This document shows positions 1,781 to 8,174 of a stretch of DNA of 35,367 nucleotides, one piece after another (the first letter of the stretch is position 1; each line of letters opens with the position of its first letter). This DNA comes from a virus. A model generated the notes under the pieces. It searched no databases. It was not told the origin of the DNA and saw nothing but the letters and a program-made list of their open reading frames with translations. The stretch spans positions 1-35,367 of IMG/VR virus record IMGVR_UViG_3300043540_000944. One strand, written 5' to 3'. The translations under genes were made by a program, and so were the position numbers.

Positions 1781-3214
1781 TTATGCGTATGGAACGCTGA
1801 CAATCAGCGTGATGTTGAGCCGCTTGCAGGTCGCCACTGAATTCAGGTTGAACTGAAGCTGGTCACCAGCGGATAGCGATGTGGAACCCCATGCACTGAT
1901 TGCGAGGTTCTGGTTCTTCTGTACGGAGCTAAGCGTGGGCTTATCCGTACCAGCGATGGACGATGTGGTTGGGAAGCCCGAATACGTTGAACGCAGAACG
2001 TCAACGACCGCAGAGCCAGAAGCGTCTGCCGTCAGCACCCAACCTGTGATGGTGCAAGCCACCGGGATGTTTATCTGACCGTAGTTGCCCGTGGTCGGTA
2101 CTGACCCGCTCCCGTCAATGACGTAATGGATGGCAGCGGTACGAGCCGGAAGCTGTGAAGTGGATGCTGTACCTGCAATATTGGTGAATGCAATTTGTGA
2201 GCCGTTGACTTGGTACTGTCCGGTAACGCTCAGATTCCCTTGGTCGGTGAACGTGATTCGGTCGGTGTCAGTTCCACCCGAACGGGTAGACATGTGGAGC
2301 TTCCAGCCCGTCCCATCACCGAAGTAGACACGCCCGGAATTCGGAGACCCGAAGCCACCAGCGAGAACGACCTTGTTGCCAATCGTGTTTCCGAGACCAG
2401 TAGTGCCGGAGATTGTCTGAATGGCAGTGAACACGTTCTGTGCAGCCAGTCTCGCCAATGTTGCGGTGTCGCTCAGGTCAGTGGACGCAGCCGGAATCGT
2501 TGGCTTGCCAGTCAAGTCGGCATAAGAACCAGACGTTGCCACGGTTGCCAGTGAAGACGTGTTCGCCTTCGCATCCAATGCAGCCTTCAGGTCAAGCTGG
2601 CTTGAAAGCGTTCCGGTGATGCTTCCCCATGTCGGTGCCCCAAGCGAAGAAGGCTTGTTGCTCAGGTCGTTGTAGTCTCCGGAGAAAGCCACAGTCTTCA
2701 AGGACGACGAGTTCACCTTGGCGGTCAGGTCGGCGACCAGCCCGGTGATGTCGGACTCGTAGAGTGTCACCGCTCCACTCTTGCCAGCCACGGTTGATAC
2801 ACCAGCGACAAGGGAGCCAATCTCCGGACGGTTAATCAGGTCGTTGTAGTCGCCTGTCTGAGCGACACGAGCCAGAACAATGGACGGGTTGGGGTTCACC
2901 GTCAACGGCGGATACGTGCTCAGGTCATAGTCGGTTGTGCTTCCAGTGAAGCTGTACGTTGCCGAAGCAACCAGCGTGTGGCTATCGTCAAAGAAGTCAA
3001 AGATGTAATACGTGTTCGCCGGGGTGATGGCGTCGTTCTTCCACAGTTGGAACGAGAACGAGTTGCCGACAACGGTGGTCGTCATCGTGGTGACGATGAT
3101 GCCCGTGCCAATGACCTTGGGAACGTTGTCCCCATAGCCAGCCAAAGTGACCGTGACATAACCATGTCCAGCCGTCCCCTGAACCGACTCATATTGTCCG
3201 TGTACTGTAATCAT
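1781..3214 (-). CDS. Tail fibre protein with repeated GDYxDLxxKP motifs
   Basis: A 477-residue fibre. Residues 1 to about 105 form a beta-rich module very similar to the free-standing protein encoded next door at 3224-3529, sharing NDxITPANTYY and YSFTGS. The middle carries at least three degenerate repeats of the fibre shaft type: GDYNDLINRPEI, GDYNDLSNKPS and GSYADLTGKPTIP. A beta-rich C-terminal half follows, including a segment resembling adhesin heads (GRVYFGDGTGWKL). Such proteins trimerise and attach the tail to the host surface. The gene follows the module gene by 9 bases. Confidence 0.8.
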   Translation of the reverse strand: MITVHGQYESVQGTAGHGYVTVTLAGYGDNVPKVIGTGIIVTTMTTTVVGNSFSFQLWKNDAITPANTYYIFDFFDDSHTLVASATYSFTGSTTDYDLSTYPPLTVNPNPSIVLARVAQTGDYNDLINRPEIGSLVAGVSTVAGKSGAVTLYESDITGLVADLTAKVNSSSLKTVAFSGDYNDLSNKPSSLGAPTWGSITGTLSSQLDLKAALDAKANTSSLATVATSGSYADLTGKPTIPAASTDLSDTATLARLAAQNVFTAIQTISGTTGLGNTIGNKVVLAGGFGSPNSGRVYFGDGTGWKLHMSTRSGGTDTDRITFTDQGNLSVTGQYQVNGSQIAFTNIAGTASTSQLPARTAAIHYVIDGSGSVPTTGNYGQINIPVACTITGWVLTADASGSAVVDVLRSTYSGFPTTSSIAGTDKPTLSSVQKNQNLAISAWGSTSLSAGDQLQFNLNSVATCKRLNITLIVSVPYA

Positions 3215-3223
3215 CCAAGCCTC

Positions 3224-3529
3224 TTACATCGGGGCAACGGTGGAGATGTCTACCGTGCCAGAACCCGTGAAGCTGTAGTTCGCCTGAGCCAGCAGATGAC
3301 CCGACTGGTCGTAGAACGAGAACGTGTAATAGGTGTTCGCAGGGGTGATGGAGTCGTTGGGGAACAAACTCACCGAGAACGACGAGCCAGTGGTGGTGGT
3401 CACGCTATTCACGACGATGATGCCCGTGCTTGGGACACGAGCCACGCCGGAATAGCCACCAAGCGTCACGACCACATAACCAGTGGACGCTCCGGAGATA
3501 GACTCAAAATTGCCAGTTACAGTCTTCAT
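3224..3529 (-). CDS. Stand-alone copy of the fibre N-terminal module
   Basis: A 101-residue protein alignable end to end with residues 1-105 of the following fibre protein: both have a xxTVxGxxES start, GYVxVTLxGY, STGIIV/GTGIIV, NDSITPANTYY and YSFTGS. This is a tandem gene duplication in which one copy stayed free and the other is fused to the fibre shaft. The ATG shares its A with the stop codon of the upstream membrane-protein gene (TAATG at 3529), so the two are translationally coupled. A role as fibre adaptor or attachment module is inferred. Confidence 0.65.
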   Translation of the reverse strand: MKTVTGNFESISGASTGYVVVTLGGYSGVARVPSTGIIVVNSVTTTTGSSFSVSLFPNDSITPANTYYTFSFYDQSGHLLAQANYSFTGSGTVDISTVAPM

Positions 3530-3987: not shown

Positions 3988-4317
3988 TTAACTTGAAATT
4001 CCGAACAGAGGCTCAATGGCGGTGAGCACATCCAGCAGTTGTGCCAGAGTCATACCGTCTGTGGCTCCTATTCCGGAGTAGGCATCTACCACTTGTTGTG
4101 GTAGTGGTGAATACATGTTGGGGATGACAACAACCCAATCGTCTGACTTAGCCGCTTCCAACTGGTGGAGGTCGGCACTCAGTTGCACGAGAGCGAAGCC
4201 TTCGTCCGTATCCGGATAGCGGGGGCAACGCCATGCATTGCCGTAGGCATTCGCAGCCGGAAGCAGGATGTTGTTCTCATCTCTGAAAAACTTTGAGAGT
4301 ACCCAAATGTTCTGCAT
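3988..4317 (-). CDS. Hypothetical tail-associated protein
   Basis: A 109-residue protein following the tail-tip gene by 9 bases. The C-terminal half contains DDWVVVIPNMYSPLPQQVV and DGMTLAQLLDVL, a pattern I have the impression of having seen in hypothetical proteins behind phage J-like genes, but I cannot name a family. No signal peptide, membrane segment or catalytic motif is evident. Its position between tail tip and fibres suggests a small tail-tip or fibre-assembly role. Confidence 0.5.
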   Translation of the reverse strand: MQNIWVLSKFFRDENNILLPAANAYGNAWRCPRYPDTDEGFALVQLSADLHQLEAAKSDDWVVVIPNMYSPLPQQVVDAYSGIGATDGMTLAQLLDVLTAIEPLFGISS

Positions 4318-4326
4318 GAAGATTCC

Positions 4327-4704
4327 TTAGCAAGCTGGCAGAGCAACGTTGTTGTGAATCAGCAACGGTGTGCCGTCTGCGAGGTAATAGTTCTGCTCGT
4401 CGTGCTCGTCGCTGTCCAAGCTGATGTTGATTCGTATTCCGTTGAAGCGGTCAACGGTGGCACCACTGGCTTGATAGGCTGGCTTCCATGTGCCTTCGTG
4501 CCAAATGGCTTCGCACGGGCTGACACGGTGACCGTCCACCATGCGCCAGACCGACGCTGGAACCGACGAGGTTTGAATGACACGGCGGTAAACGTCTTCA
4601 CCCGTGGTGAAGCACTTACCCTTGAGGTAATCGCCAACTTCCACGTCCTTAGCGGCAATCACACCCTTGGTCTTCTCCTCAACGAGTTCAGCCGCTTCAG
4701 GACA
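4327..4704 (-). other. Hint (intein-like) domain coding segment
   Basis: Codons for residues 1011-1135 of the tail-tip protein. What is seen: an N-terminal Cys after a Gly-rich linker, the AKDVEVGDYL pattern of Hint block A, and a C-terminal LIHNN with a hydrophobic strand before it. The usual TxxH of block B appears as SPCE, so the block B histidine seems missing. The residue after HN is Asn, not Cys/Ser/Thr, and only seven residues (NVALPAC) follow HN. These features match bacterial intein-like domains rather than a splicing intein. Whether it cleaves is unknown. Confidence 0.7.
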
Positions 4705-7700
4705 GGTCGGGTCACCGCCTGTACCACCGCCACCGGGATTGCCGGATGCAGCAGTCGCTTGAGCCACGAGGTTGACGGCAATTCGCCCGTCAAGCGACCG
4801 TTGGGCAGCAAGTAACGTGCTTGGCGAAGTCTGTGGAGGGTCAGGGTTAGTGAATTTAAGGGTGCCTGTCGCAACCTCAATGTACGGATAGATGTAGTAC
4901 GTCGTGCTTGAAGCCAATCCTGAATATGTCTTCGAACCAGCACCGATGGACAACGTGGAGCCGTCTGGACGCAGCAGCGACATGCTGGATACAGAGACCG
5001 TGATGGACGACGAAGTGTAGGTGACTGTCAGAGGGATGGCTTGGTTTGGAACGATACTTCCTTGGTTGTTCAGCACCGAAGACGTGAAGCTGCTGGCTGT
5101 CGTGCTTACTGTGTGCGAACCAACCGCCAACCAGTCGGAAGTCTTGCCCGACGCACGTACTGAACGGATTCTGGCGTTGTATTGCTGACCGCAGACCACC
5201 CCGCTGATGTAGCAGCGAGTAGCCGTGCCAGCCAACGTTGCAGCCGTTTGCCAATTGCCGTCTGGAATGTCGGTGTAGGCACTCGCTGTCGTTCCGTGTT
5301 CAAGCTGAGCACCCCAAGCGTAGACGCTGTAAGCACCCAATGCCGAACCCCACGGCGAACGTACCCACACAGTCAGTCCGTTGGTCGTATTCAGGTTGGC
5401 TGTGACTTGGTAACGCTGCCATGTGTTGTTGACAGTGACGATGGTGGAGTTGCCAGTCGTGTACGGGTGGTCTTCGATGACCAGTTCAACTTGGCATGTG
5501 GTTGCAGCCTTCAGATAGACGCTGAACACCATGTCCTGACTCTGAGCCGTCACAAGCGTGTCTTGGTGGAACCCACATGTGGTGTTCGCAGCTTTTGCCG
5601 GGAAGCTCAGCGTGTCAGCCGTAGTGCTTGCATCAGGAGCCGCTACGGTATCCGCCGTGACGGTGCATGTGGAAGCAATCAGCCAGTTGGGGTCGGTGAA
5701 GTCTTCGGTGGCGGGGATGAGGTTTTCGGTTCCGTCTCCCACCTTCTGAATCTGCACGGTAATCTTGCCGCCCGTGGTCACGAACGGGTCGTCAGGCTGG
5801 TTCCAAGTGGCAAGGATGCGTGGAATGACCACGCCATCTGTGCCAACCACGGCGGTCGCACTTCCGGAAGTCAGTTGGAGGTTCGAAGGTGCGTCAACTG
5901 CTGCTGCCAGAGCCGGGGACGGTGTATCTTCCATCCCACGCTCTTCAGCCGTGCTCCATGTGTAAACGGACGGGTCAGTTTCTACCACGTCCATCTCCAC
6001 GTACATGGTTGGAGCTTCGCCTTCTTTGTTCGAGTCTGCCTTGGTGACGAAGCGGGTGCTCCAGACTTCAAGGTTCTTATTGTCCCAACCCAACGTCGGG
6101 AAGCTCACCTGAATCACGTCCTGAGCCACGGCTTTGTAGGCACCCAACTTCATGGTCAGAGTGCCGGAGCCTTGCTGACGGTTACGCAGCAAGTAAATCT
6201 TCATGAGCCGTTGTACGGTAGCGACCGACTGAACGAACTGGTAGCGACGGTCGCCATACAGCTTCACGCCATTGTCAGCAGCAAGGTTCACATCGCTTGC
6301 ATAGCCGTGTGCAGCGTCTTGAGCGTACTCAGGAGCATCGCAAGGCTGGTACTGACCAGACCACACGCCATCGTGCTTGATGTTCGGGTTGGAGGTCGTC
6401 TCCGTGTACGGATAAACCGGGCTGACGTAGGTTGCACGAACAGCATTGTTGAGGTCACGGAGCTTACGCTTCGGAGTCCACTTCACCGAACCAATAATGT
6501 CGTTCTCATCGAAGCTCAGACCGGAGCCGTACCAAGCAGCGGGGATGATTCTCCACTTGCCACCACAGTACGAGATGCGACCTTCCATGCTCATCAGCAT
6601 CGAGTCAAGAATGTCGCCCGGTGTCGTAGAGGCTTGGAACGAGCCGTTGATGGTGTAACGCTTCTCGTATCCGGGCACAGCGGTTGCTATCCCACCGCAT
6701 TGCCAGACAATGTTGTGGTCGTTGGTGAACCCATTCAACGTGGTTGACCACGACGGGTGACTTGAACCAGAGGTTGGGTTCCCGGTATACGACCCGGTGT
6801 ATCCAACTACGGTCTGCTTCTTGCCGTTGCTGTCGGTAATAACCTGCCCGACCACATACGTCTTGTTGGCTTGCCACTGCGAAGACTGGCTACCGGATGC
6901 CAGTGGAACAAGCTCATCACAGATGTTGGCTGCTGCAATCAACTGGTCAATGTCAATCTCAGTCCATGTGCAGCCCACGCCGTACTCAGTGTTGGTTAGG
7001 AAGTCGGCGATGCAGAGAGCGGCGTTATCCGTCCAGACGTGGGTTGCAGGGTTCGGCGTTACGCCGTCACCAAGGTACTGAGCACCCAAGCGGGGGTCGT
7101 AGATGTCGCACTTGCCGTGGAGATTGACCTTCAACGTTGGAATGCCGCTGAACGATTCCGAAGTGTAGTTGGTGCGGAGATAGCTGGCACAGAGACCGTT
7201 CAGGGTGCAGGTTGAATCCCACTGCGGGAGATGGTCACCGGGAGATGACAGTTGAAGGTTGTACCCTTCGTACCCGCCGTACCACCACTGATGTTCAATG
7301 TAAGTTCCGATGGTGTCAGCACCCCAACGGTACTTGTTGCCAGCATCATCGGTACGCCATCCGCCAAGGACGTAGCCTGTCGTGCCATTCGTGAAGGTTG
7401 CTAACTTGCCGTCAATGTATACCTGCTCAAGTGACTTGCACGGGTGTGCAGCCCAAATCACTACTTGATGCAGAGCGTGAATGCCTTTATTTCCGCCTGT
7501 GTTTTGGAAGGCGATGGTGCCATTCACACGGGTCTGCCCGTAGACAATCTGCCATGATGCGGCTGGCTGTTTTGTACTGAATGAGTTCGCCTGACCGCCA
7601 CGGGTCTCTTCAGCGATGCCACTGATGGTGGTGCTGACACCCATGACGCCGAGCTTCAAGGCGAGTGCCGGGTTGACCGGAGCCAACAGAACGGCTCCAG

Positions 7701-7734
7701 CAATCATGGCTACGCCCATTACAATCTTCGCCAT
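4327..7734 (-). CDS. J-like tail tip/host specificity protein with C-terminal Hint domain
   Basis: Central tail-tip protein of 1135 residues, expected at the distal end of the tail tube to contact the host. A hydrophobic N-terminus (about 1-35) precedes the TxWQIVYGQTRVNG block typical of J-like proteins. Residues about 285-350 look like an inserted chitin-binding-type module (YVVGQVI, then HPSW and VWQCGG); 670-825 resemble a carbohydrate-binding jelly roll; fibronectin-III-like segments follow. After a GGGGTGG linker, residues 1011-1135 form an intein-like Hint domain: Cys1011, VEVGDYL, a degenerate B block (VSPCEAIWHEGTW) and NYYLADGTPLLIHNN, with HN at 1127-1128. The start at 7734 is fixed by a TAATG overlap with the preceding gene; an upstream in-frame start at 7764 would overlap it by 31 bases. 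Confidence 0.85.
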   Translation of the reverse strand: MAKIVMGVAMIAGAVLLAPVNPALALKLGVMGVSTTISGIAEETRGGQANSFSTKQPAASWQIVYGQTRVNGTIAFQNTGGNKGIHALHQVVIWAAHPCKSLEQVYIDGKLATFTNGTTGYVLGGWRTDDAGNKYRWGADTIGTYIEHQWWYGGYEGYNLQLSSPGDHLPQWDSTCTLNGLCASYLRTNYTSESFSGIPTLKVNLHGKCDIYDPRLGAQYLGDGVTPNPATHVWTDNAALCIADFLTNTEYGVGCTWTEIDIDQLIAAANICDELVPLASGSQSSQWQANKTYVVGQVITDSNGKKQTVVGYTGSYTGNPTSGSSHPSWSTTLNGFTNDHNIVWQCGGIATAVPGYEKRYTINGSFQASTTPGDILDSMLMSMEGRISYCGGKWRIIPAAWYGSGLSFDENDIIGSVKWTPKRKLRDLNNAVRATYVSPVYPYTETTSNPNIKHDGVWSGQYQPCDAPEYAQDAAHGYASDVNLAADNGVKLYGDRRYQFVQSVATVQRLMKIYLLRNRQQGSGTLTMKLGAYKAVAQDVIQVSFPTLGWDNKNLEVWSTRFVTKADSNKEGEAPTMYVEMDVVETDPSVYTWSTAEERGMEDTPSPALAAAVDAPSNLQLTSGSATAVVGTDGVVIPRILATWNQPDDPFVTTGGKITVQIQKVGDGTENLIPATEDFTDPNWLIASTCTVTADTVAAPDASTTADTLSFPAKAANTTCGFHQDTLVTAQSQDMVFSVYLKAATTCQVELVIEDHPYTTGNSTIVTVNNTWQRYQVTANLNTTNGLTVWVRSPWGSALGAYSVYAWGAQLEHGTTASAYTDIPDGNWQTAATLAGTATRCYISGVVCGQQYNARIRSVRASGKTSDWLAVGSHTVSTTASSFTSSVLNNQGSIVPNQAIPLTVTYTSSSITVSVSSMSLLRPDGSTLSIGAGSKTYSGLASSTTYYIYPYIEVATGTLKFTNPDPPQTSPSTLLAAQRSLDGRIAVNLVAQATAASGNPGGGGTGGDPTCPEAAELVEEKTKGVIAAKDVEVGDYLKGKCFTTGEDVYRRVIQTSSVPASVWRMVDGHRVSPCEAIWHEGTWKPAYQASGATVDRFNGIRINISLDSDEHDEQNYYLADGTPLLIHNNVALPAC

Positions 7735-8174
7735 TAGGCACCCACCTTCCATGCACGACGGCACTGCTTCACGGGGATTCGCTTCAAGCCTTCGGGGGAG
7801 ACGAACACTGCGTCTTTGCCGTTCATGTAGACGATGCCAAGAGCCACACCGAACTCACCGTCAAAGCACACAACATCGCCACGTTGAGCGAAAAGTGGTG
7901 AAGGCAGTTCAGGCATGTCGTTGGCTTTAGTCACGAACACAGCAACGTCTTCTACGGTCATGCCACCAGTTACGGTCTTAATGCGACGAGCAGCACCAAG
8001 CTCAGTCGTGTACTTGCCACGGAAGTCAGCAGCCAAGTCGCTGCCCGTCATAGCTTGAATGGCGTCACACACGAACAGAGCACAGTCGTTCTTCCCCCAC
8101 TCGAAGGGTTCATTCGCACGACCGTTCACAAAGTCGTTCAGTGCAACTTCCCATTTGTCCTGTCTTGTAATCAT
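7734..8174 (-). CDS. DUF6950/NlpC-P60-like tail assembly protein
   Basis: A 146-residue protein with the EWGKNDCALF motif (C31) followed by AMTGSD, the signature of DUF6950 proteins, which occupy the place of lambda gpK-like NlpC/P60 tail-tip peptidases. C31 is the likely nucleophile; the later QRGDVVCF segment matches the RGD strand of NlpC-like folds. A catalytic His is less clear. It probably acts in the tail tip, on cell-wall peptide or on assembly. It lies between the hub protein and J-like protein, with a TAATG overlap to the latter. Confidence 0.75.
   Translation of the reverse strand: MITRQDKWEVALNDFVNGRANEPFEWGKNDCALFVCDAIQAMTGSDLAADFRGKYTTELGAARRIKTVTGGMTVEDVAVFVTKANDMPELPSPLFAQRGDVVCFDGEFGVALGIVYMNGKDAVFVSPEGLKRIPVKQCRRAWKVGA

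Follow-up and report, generated by a model that had tools for sequence, protein, structure and literature searches.

The block B motif T-x-x-H is typical of Hint domains, though not strictly required for bacterial intein-like (BIL) domains of type A. Splicing persists in several inteins that lack the block B His (PMC7664689); type A BILs, which have no +1 nucleophile, cleave and, at a low level, also splice (PMC4031507). The Vint family comprises Hint domains of eukaryotic VWA proteins (Burglin 2008, PMC2362128). On the phage side, the intramolecular chaperones at the C-terminus of K1F and T5 fibres and spikes are removed by Ser autoproteolysis, and pairs of a tail-fibre gene and a small chaperone gene are exchanged between unrelated phages (PMC10579305). 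As far as our partial literature search reaches, phage Hint domains and inteins are described from terminase and nucleotide-reductase genes, not from tail tips; subscription journals may hold prior descriptions, e.g. the original BIL papers.

The window – the whole stretch of DNA analysed here, 35,367 nucleotides of the IMG/VR virus record IMGVR_UViG_3300043540_000944 – belongs to a temperate siphophage of a soil bacterium with HK97-type head genes. It encodes a terminase, a portal, a protease, a major head protein and an integrase; a tape measure, a distal tail protein and tail proteins lie ahead of a J-like gene. The J protein matches phrog_5616 (E = 8e-63) and phrog_31, the central tail fibre J (E = 3e-26), and a tblastn search matched J-like proteins in 319 phage records. 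The full-length protein matches no Pfam domain, and thus no peptidase S74 or intramolecular chaperone profile either. An insertion in its hub domain (residues ~288-345, SSQWQANKTYVVGQV...DHNIVWQCG), which the phage J proteins in our alignment A1 lack, recurs in one related locus (L097) and resembles a small binding module. The following features were assigned on the minus strand:

4327..7734, minus strand: J-like tail-tip protein, 1135 aa from the ATG at 7734 (alternative start GTG at 7764)
4750..5082, minus strand: beta-domain (J residues 885-995) preceding the linker (tblastn, IMG/VR scan)
4705..4749, minus strand: Gly-rich linker ASGNPGGGGTGGDPT (J residues 996-1010), after which cleavage is predicted
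4351..4704, minus strand: Hint domain, J residues 1011-1128, bounded by Cys1 and the first of the two Asn in HNN (AF2, Foldseek/VIA, family alignments)
4702..4704, minus strand: Cys1 (J Cys1011), block A nucleophile directly after GNPGGGGTGGDPT, invariant in 11/11 members
4510..4521, minus strand: block B motif S-P-C-E (ending in J Glu1075) where T-x-x-H is expected; [S/T]-P-x-[E/D] in all members
4351..4356, minus strand: block G His-Asn (J His1127, Asn1128), invariant in 11/11 members
4330..4350, minus strand: C-terminal tail NVALPAC with a terminal Cys (J Cys1135, codon 4332-4330), the terminal Cys being present in 10/11 members
3988..4317, minus strand: partner gene, 109 aa, with its ATG 9 bases beyond the J stop (partner HMM)

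The C-terminal 125 residues of J (window 4327-4704, minus strand) are a genuine Hint domain. The end of the protein reads ...SGNPGGGGTGGDPT/CPEAAELV...VEVGDYL...HRVSPCEAIW..GTWKPA...EQNYYLADGTPLLIHN/NVALPAC, with slashes at the domain borders. The elements that the initial annotation had named – Cys1011 (codon 4704-4702), VEVGDYL, SPCE, LIHNN and the Gly-rich linker, numbered from the ATG at 7734 – are all present, as is the seven-residue flank past the first Asn, whose +1 residue is not Cys, Ser or Thr. The profile match to known Hint domains that it had proposed as a check was not obtained: the window domain has no match in Pfam, PHROG, NCBIfam or PDB sequences, nor by phage tblastn. The predicted fold, on the other hand, agrees with its assignment. 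In a Foldseek search of the PDB, the AF2 model (pLDDT 70.9, below 50 in the C-terminal tail) has as its top match the BIL 2lwy of C. thermocellum (E = 6.4e-4, probability 1.00); further top matches are Tetrahymena BIL2, class 3 inteins, gp41-1 and Vint, the inteins likewise at probability 1.00. With VIA-align, dozens of Hint structures reach Z-scores of 9-10 across ~110 residues (model residues 5-124). Because of these matches the identification is secure, despite a moderate-confidence model that rests on an alignment of only six sequences.

Among the Hint families of Pfam, only Vint shows weak matches to the clade, found in two of 10 members with E-values as low as 0.0019, which falls short of the curated cut-off; the Hint subtype of another locus, L031, matches it at E = 2e-5. 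The fold of Vint (PF14623; Tetrahymena Vint, PDB 8r2c) is also matched by the model. In contrast to Vint proteins, the window protein has no VWA domain upstream but a J-like body, and it has no Vint match itself. A chance resemblance to Hint is contradicted by 11 contigs with fixed catalytic residues and by the substitutions in one close pair (L093/L094). Judging from seven synonymous versus two nonsynonymous changes (dS 0.092, dN 0.007), the Hint domain of this pair is under purifying selection.

The relatives were reached through the body of J. Single-sequence IMG/VR scans found nothing, whether they used the domain, the complete J, a consensus probe or the PhiXhv-12 domain, while an alignment of the J hub led to 80 IMG/VR loci, among them one (L018) that terminates in this Hint; scans with the Hint domain then yielded L093-L098. 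Consensus Hint probes served as bait only, and conclusions were drawn from the sequences recovered. The generic Hint probe recovered mostly annotated intein hosts. Two weak matches, L105 and L107, were judged to be chance. Where the host is known, same-type relatives lie in Acidobacteriaceae/Acidobacteria genomes (L096, L097, L098); L096/L100 is a prophage of Acidobacteriaceae KBS 96. Within Acidobacteria the same-type Hint is rare, since only one of 257 genomes in the order and one of 396 in each phylum sample contain it.

Cys1 and the His-Asn pair are fixed in all 11 same-type contigs, while the rest of the domain drops to 38% identity. Block B, whose register in the alignment is set by flanking Trp residues, reads [S/T]-P-x-E throughout the clade, with Asp only in L117; the Cys of SPCE is not conserved (absent from L097, L109 and L117). 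Other J genes with a Hint tip have T-P-N-H (L031) or T-P-T-H (L119) at the aligned place. None of the 11 members has Cys, Ser or Thr at the +1 position (N, M, M, Y, Y, A, L, W, F, Q, F). The clade thus shares with type A BILs the C-terminal His-Asn and the missing +1 nucleophile; because of [S/T]-P-x-[E/D] in place of T-x-x-H we file the domain as BIL-like, not as a BIL. From class 1 inteins, which have a +1 nucleophile and join two exteins of one conserved protein, it departs by the absent +1 nucleophile and by a C-terminal flank of 5-8 residues. By its residues, the domain is a type-A-BIL-like Hint with an altered active site, in which an acidic residue occupies the block B His position. Like the C. 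thermocellum BIL, its best fold match, it has Cys1, lacks an endonuclease and is set in a variable protein. Unlike type A BILs, the clade ends 5-8 residues from the C-terminus, has a terminal Cys and a constant partner gene, and is reached by no library profile.

The tails beyond Asn are mainly hydrophobic. Ten members end in Cys (NVALPAC, MLMRLC twice, YNIMPNPC, YPILPC, AIIMSC, LPMNPC, WWFSPC, FFVLPC and FRIAPC), while L116 ends in QEIGS. The terminal Cys lies mostly at +6 from Asn (range 6-8). It is unlikely to be a by-product of a ribosome-binding site, as both its codon (TGC/TGT) and the stop codon (TAA/TGA/TAG) vary. A Hint at the extreme C-terminus that is followed by such a tail keeps a peptide bond beyond Asn, as cyclisation of this residue needs.

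Upstream of the domain, the Gly-rich linker stands at the same place in all 11 same-type loci. The preceding beta-domain has no match in Pfam; among the loci examined, its tblastn matches (E <1e-5) are confined to J genes with a terminal Hint, which belongs to one of three types. An IMG/VR scan with the beta-domain added five same-type Hint-J genes, one J with another type of Hint (L119) and one without a Hint (L118). The J of L118, a single case with a short reading frame (227 aa), has the beta-domain and a Gly-rich linker and stops in the Gly-rich stretch. L119 has at the same place a Hint with TPTHH and HN-Ser+1, i.e. the complete intein-like residue set. The gene (L119:3380-4792, on a 117-kb contig) leaves a five-residue C-terminal flank, SVPLS, which makes this Hint a candidate case of genuine splicing with a C-extein of just a few residues. 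Outside the beta-domain and the Hint, BLAST aligns none of the J bodies of L093/L116, L109, L112 and L117 with the window J; hence the cassette, together with its partner, moves between unrelated tail-tip proteins. The Cys-ending tail, the beta-domain before the linker, the linked downstream gene and the presence of the cassette on unrelated J bodies all go beyond the initial annotation.

In every same-type locus a small partner gene begins 2-40 bases past the J stop; in the window its ribosome-binding site overlaps the stop (TAAGGAA). The partner HMM finds a match in each of the 11 same-type Hint loci and in no ORF of the remaining J loci (7718 ORFs scanned), and the partner is absent from all 38 Hint-less J genes that are followed by 1 kb or more of sequence. 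For this co-occurrence (11/11 versus 0/38) Fisher's test gives p = 3e-11, uncorrected for the relatedness of the phages concerned. When IMG/VR was scanned with the partner, every contig recovered carried a Hint-J gene. The AF2 model of the partner is alpha/beta (pLDDT 92.9); searches of the PDB and of the viral library gave no clear relative (best VIA Z 3.8), and Pfam and PHROG no family. The alignment contains eight invariant residues (W5, S8, P20, Y25, Q52, A55, A56, L98), none of them Lys or Cys, which favours a chaperone, trigger or cap over a simple covalent acceptor. In L097 (8381-9895) the partner has 505 aa: its 110-aa core is interrupted midway by a 230-residue beta-rich insert and followed by a C-terminal extension, suggesting that the partner can display extra domains. 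A suspected homology to the small downstream genes of L030, L031 and L119 was not established (hhalign probability 1.7%); among the downstream genes of other Hint types, only that of L119 scored above all 500 shuffles.

Starting from what is observed – the fold as a predicted model, the residue conservation, purifying selection in L093/L094, the mobility of the cassette and the gene linkage – we infer the Hint chemistry, its timing and the role of the partner. We consider it probable that the type-A-BIL-like Hint processes J post-translationally, as a step of tail-tip maturation that the small gene product would assist as chaperone, trigger or cap. Between the last linker residue and Cys1011 an N-to-S acyl shift would take place. 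The resulting thioester could then be hydrolysed, leaving a cleaved J that ends in the Gly linker; or Asn1128 could cyclise and the freed amine of the short tail take the thioester, leaving a J with a Cys-ending tail. Either way J would lose the 118-residue Hint, a C-terminal piece that would be present during folding and assembly and then be removed. Self-trimming, named in the initial annotation as the simpler option, still explains the Hint best. The Hint fold, the invariant Cys1 and His-Asn and the low dN/dS in L093/L094 argue for autoprocessing, as does the Hint-less J of L118, which ends like the predicted product, and L119, which in the same architecture keeps TPTHH and HN-Ser+1. Furthermore, active inteins without the block B His (PMC7664689) and type A BILs without a +1 nucleophile (PMC4031507) are known, and so are autocleaved C-terminal chaperones and the exchange of fibre and chaperone genes (PMC10579305). 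Like these chaperones, the Hint sits at the C-terminus of a receptor-binding tail protein, would remove itself and co-moves with a small gene; the chaperones, however, are alpha-helical homotrimers using Ser autoproteolysis, and the Hint is unrelated to them in fold and chemistry.

What is more challenging is the state of the active site. Throughout the clade Glu or Asp stands in for the block B His, a helper of the first step, so that the Hint might be inactive or very slow. Since His-less inteins splice (PMC7664689), this loss alone does not exclude activity; the initial annotation rightly noted the missing His and +1 nucleophile, but its conclusion that the domain should not splice was too strong (PMC4031507, PMC7664689). 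A Hint whose fold is kept solely as a structural or receptor-binding domain of the tail tip would fit the clade-wide loss of both residues. We nevertheless regard such a domain as rather doubtful: Cys1 and His-Asn, which catalysis alone needs, are fixed in 11/11 members while their neighbours vary, and L112 retains them although a long insert sits in the N-terminal part of its Hint. Somewhat less probable still is ligation instead of trimming, in which the J thioester would be transferred to the tail's terminal Cys or else to the partner and the tail tip would be capped covalently. The terminal Cys (10/11, with varied codon and stop, mostly six residues past Asn), the restriction of the partner to Hint loci, and the insert in the L097 partner, which may mean that the partner is exposed, speak for it; the partner, however, has no invariant Lys or Cys, the distance from Asn to the terminal Cys varies, and L116 does without this Cys. 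An equally unlikely form of the idea is a mobile three-part cassette in which the beta-domain presents the linker, the Glu-block-B Hint makes the thioester, and tail or partner are joined to yield a covalently capped or extended tip. The crosslink between tail tip and another virion protein that the initial annotation had envisaged finds no supporting sequence evidence, the partner included, and its covalent attachment to the host is likewise unsupported, as nothing points to a host nucleophile. Finally, the terminal Cys could pair with Cys1 or the SPCE Cys and keep the Hint inactive until reduced. Two near-invariant Cys do lie at adjoining ends of the fold; J is made in the reducing cytoplasm, however, and the inconstancy of the SPCE Cys further makes redox gating highly improbable.

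If autoprocessing is true, Hint chemistry would provide a maturation step for phage tail tips, whereas the C-terminal autoprocessing known from fibres relies on other folds. The clade, a natural one whose block B position is acidic, would be useful for testing how this position drives the acyl shift, and the two-gene system of Hint and partner would make control of processing by a second protein testable.

Protein ends of the C...HN kind also occur, in some cases near tail genes, in the Xanthomonas and Stenotrophomonas phages LucasX, PhiXhv-12, XacN1 and DLP_6; all except DLP_6 share the Gly-rich linker with the window. This subtype differs by an SxSTP block and by tails like QKM or KQIQ without a terminal Cys, and its profile link to the window family is weak. 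In Xanthomonas phage PhiXhv-12, the gene that adjoins the Hint-ending one (L004:6288-6707) appears to encode a degenerate second Hint copy without Cys1 and His-Asn. In the window itself, two adjacent genes beyond the partner (1781-3214 and 3224-3529, minus strand) have a common N-terminal region (56% identity over 104 aa) and apparently represent a duplicated part of a virion protein.
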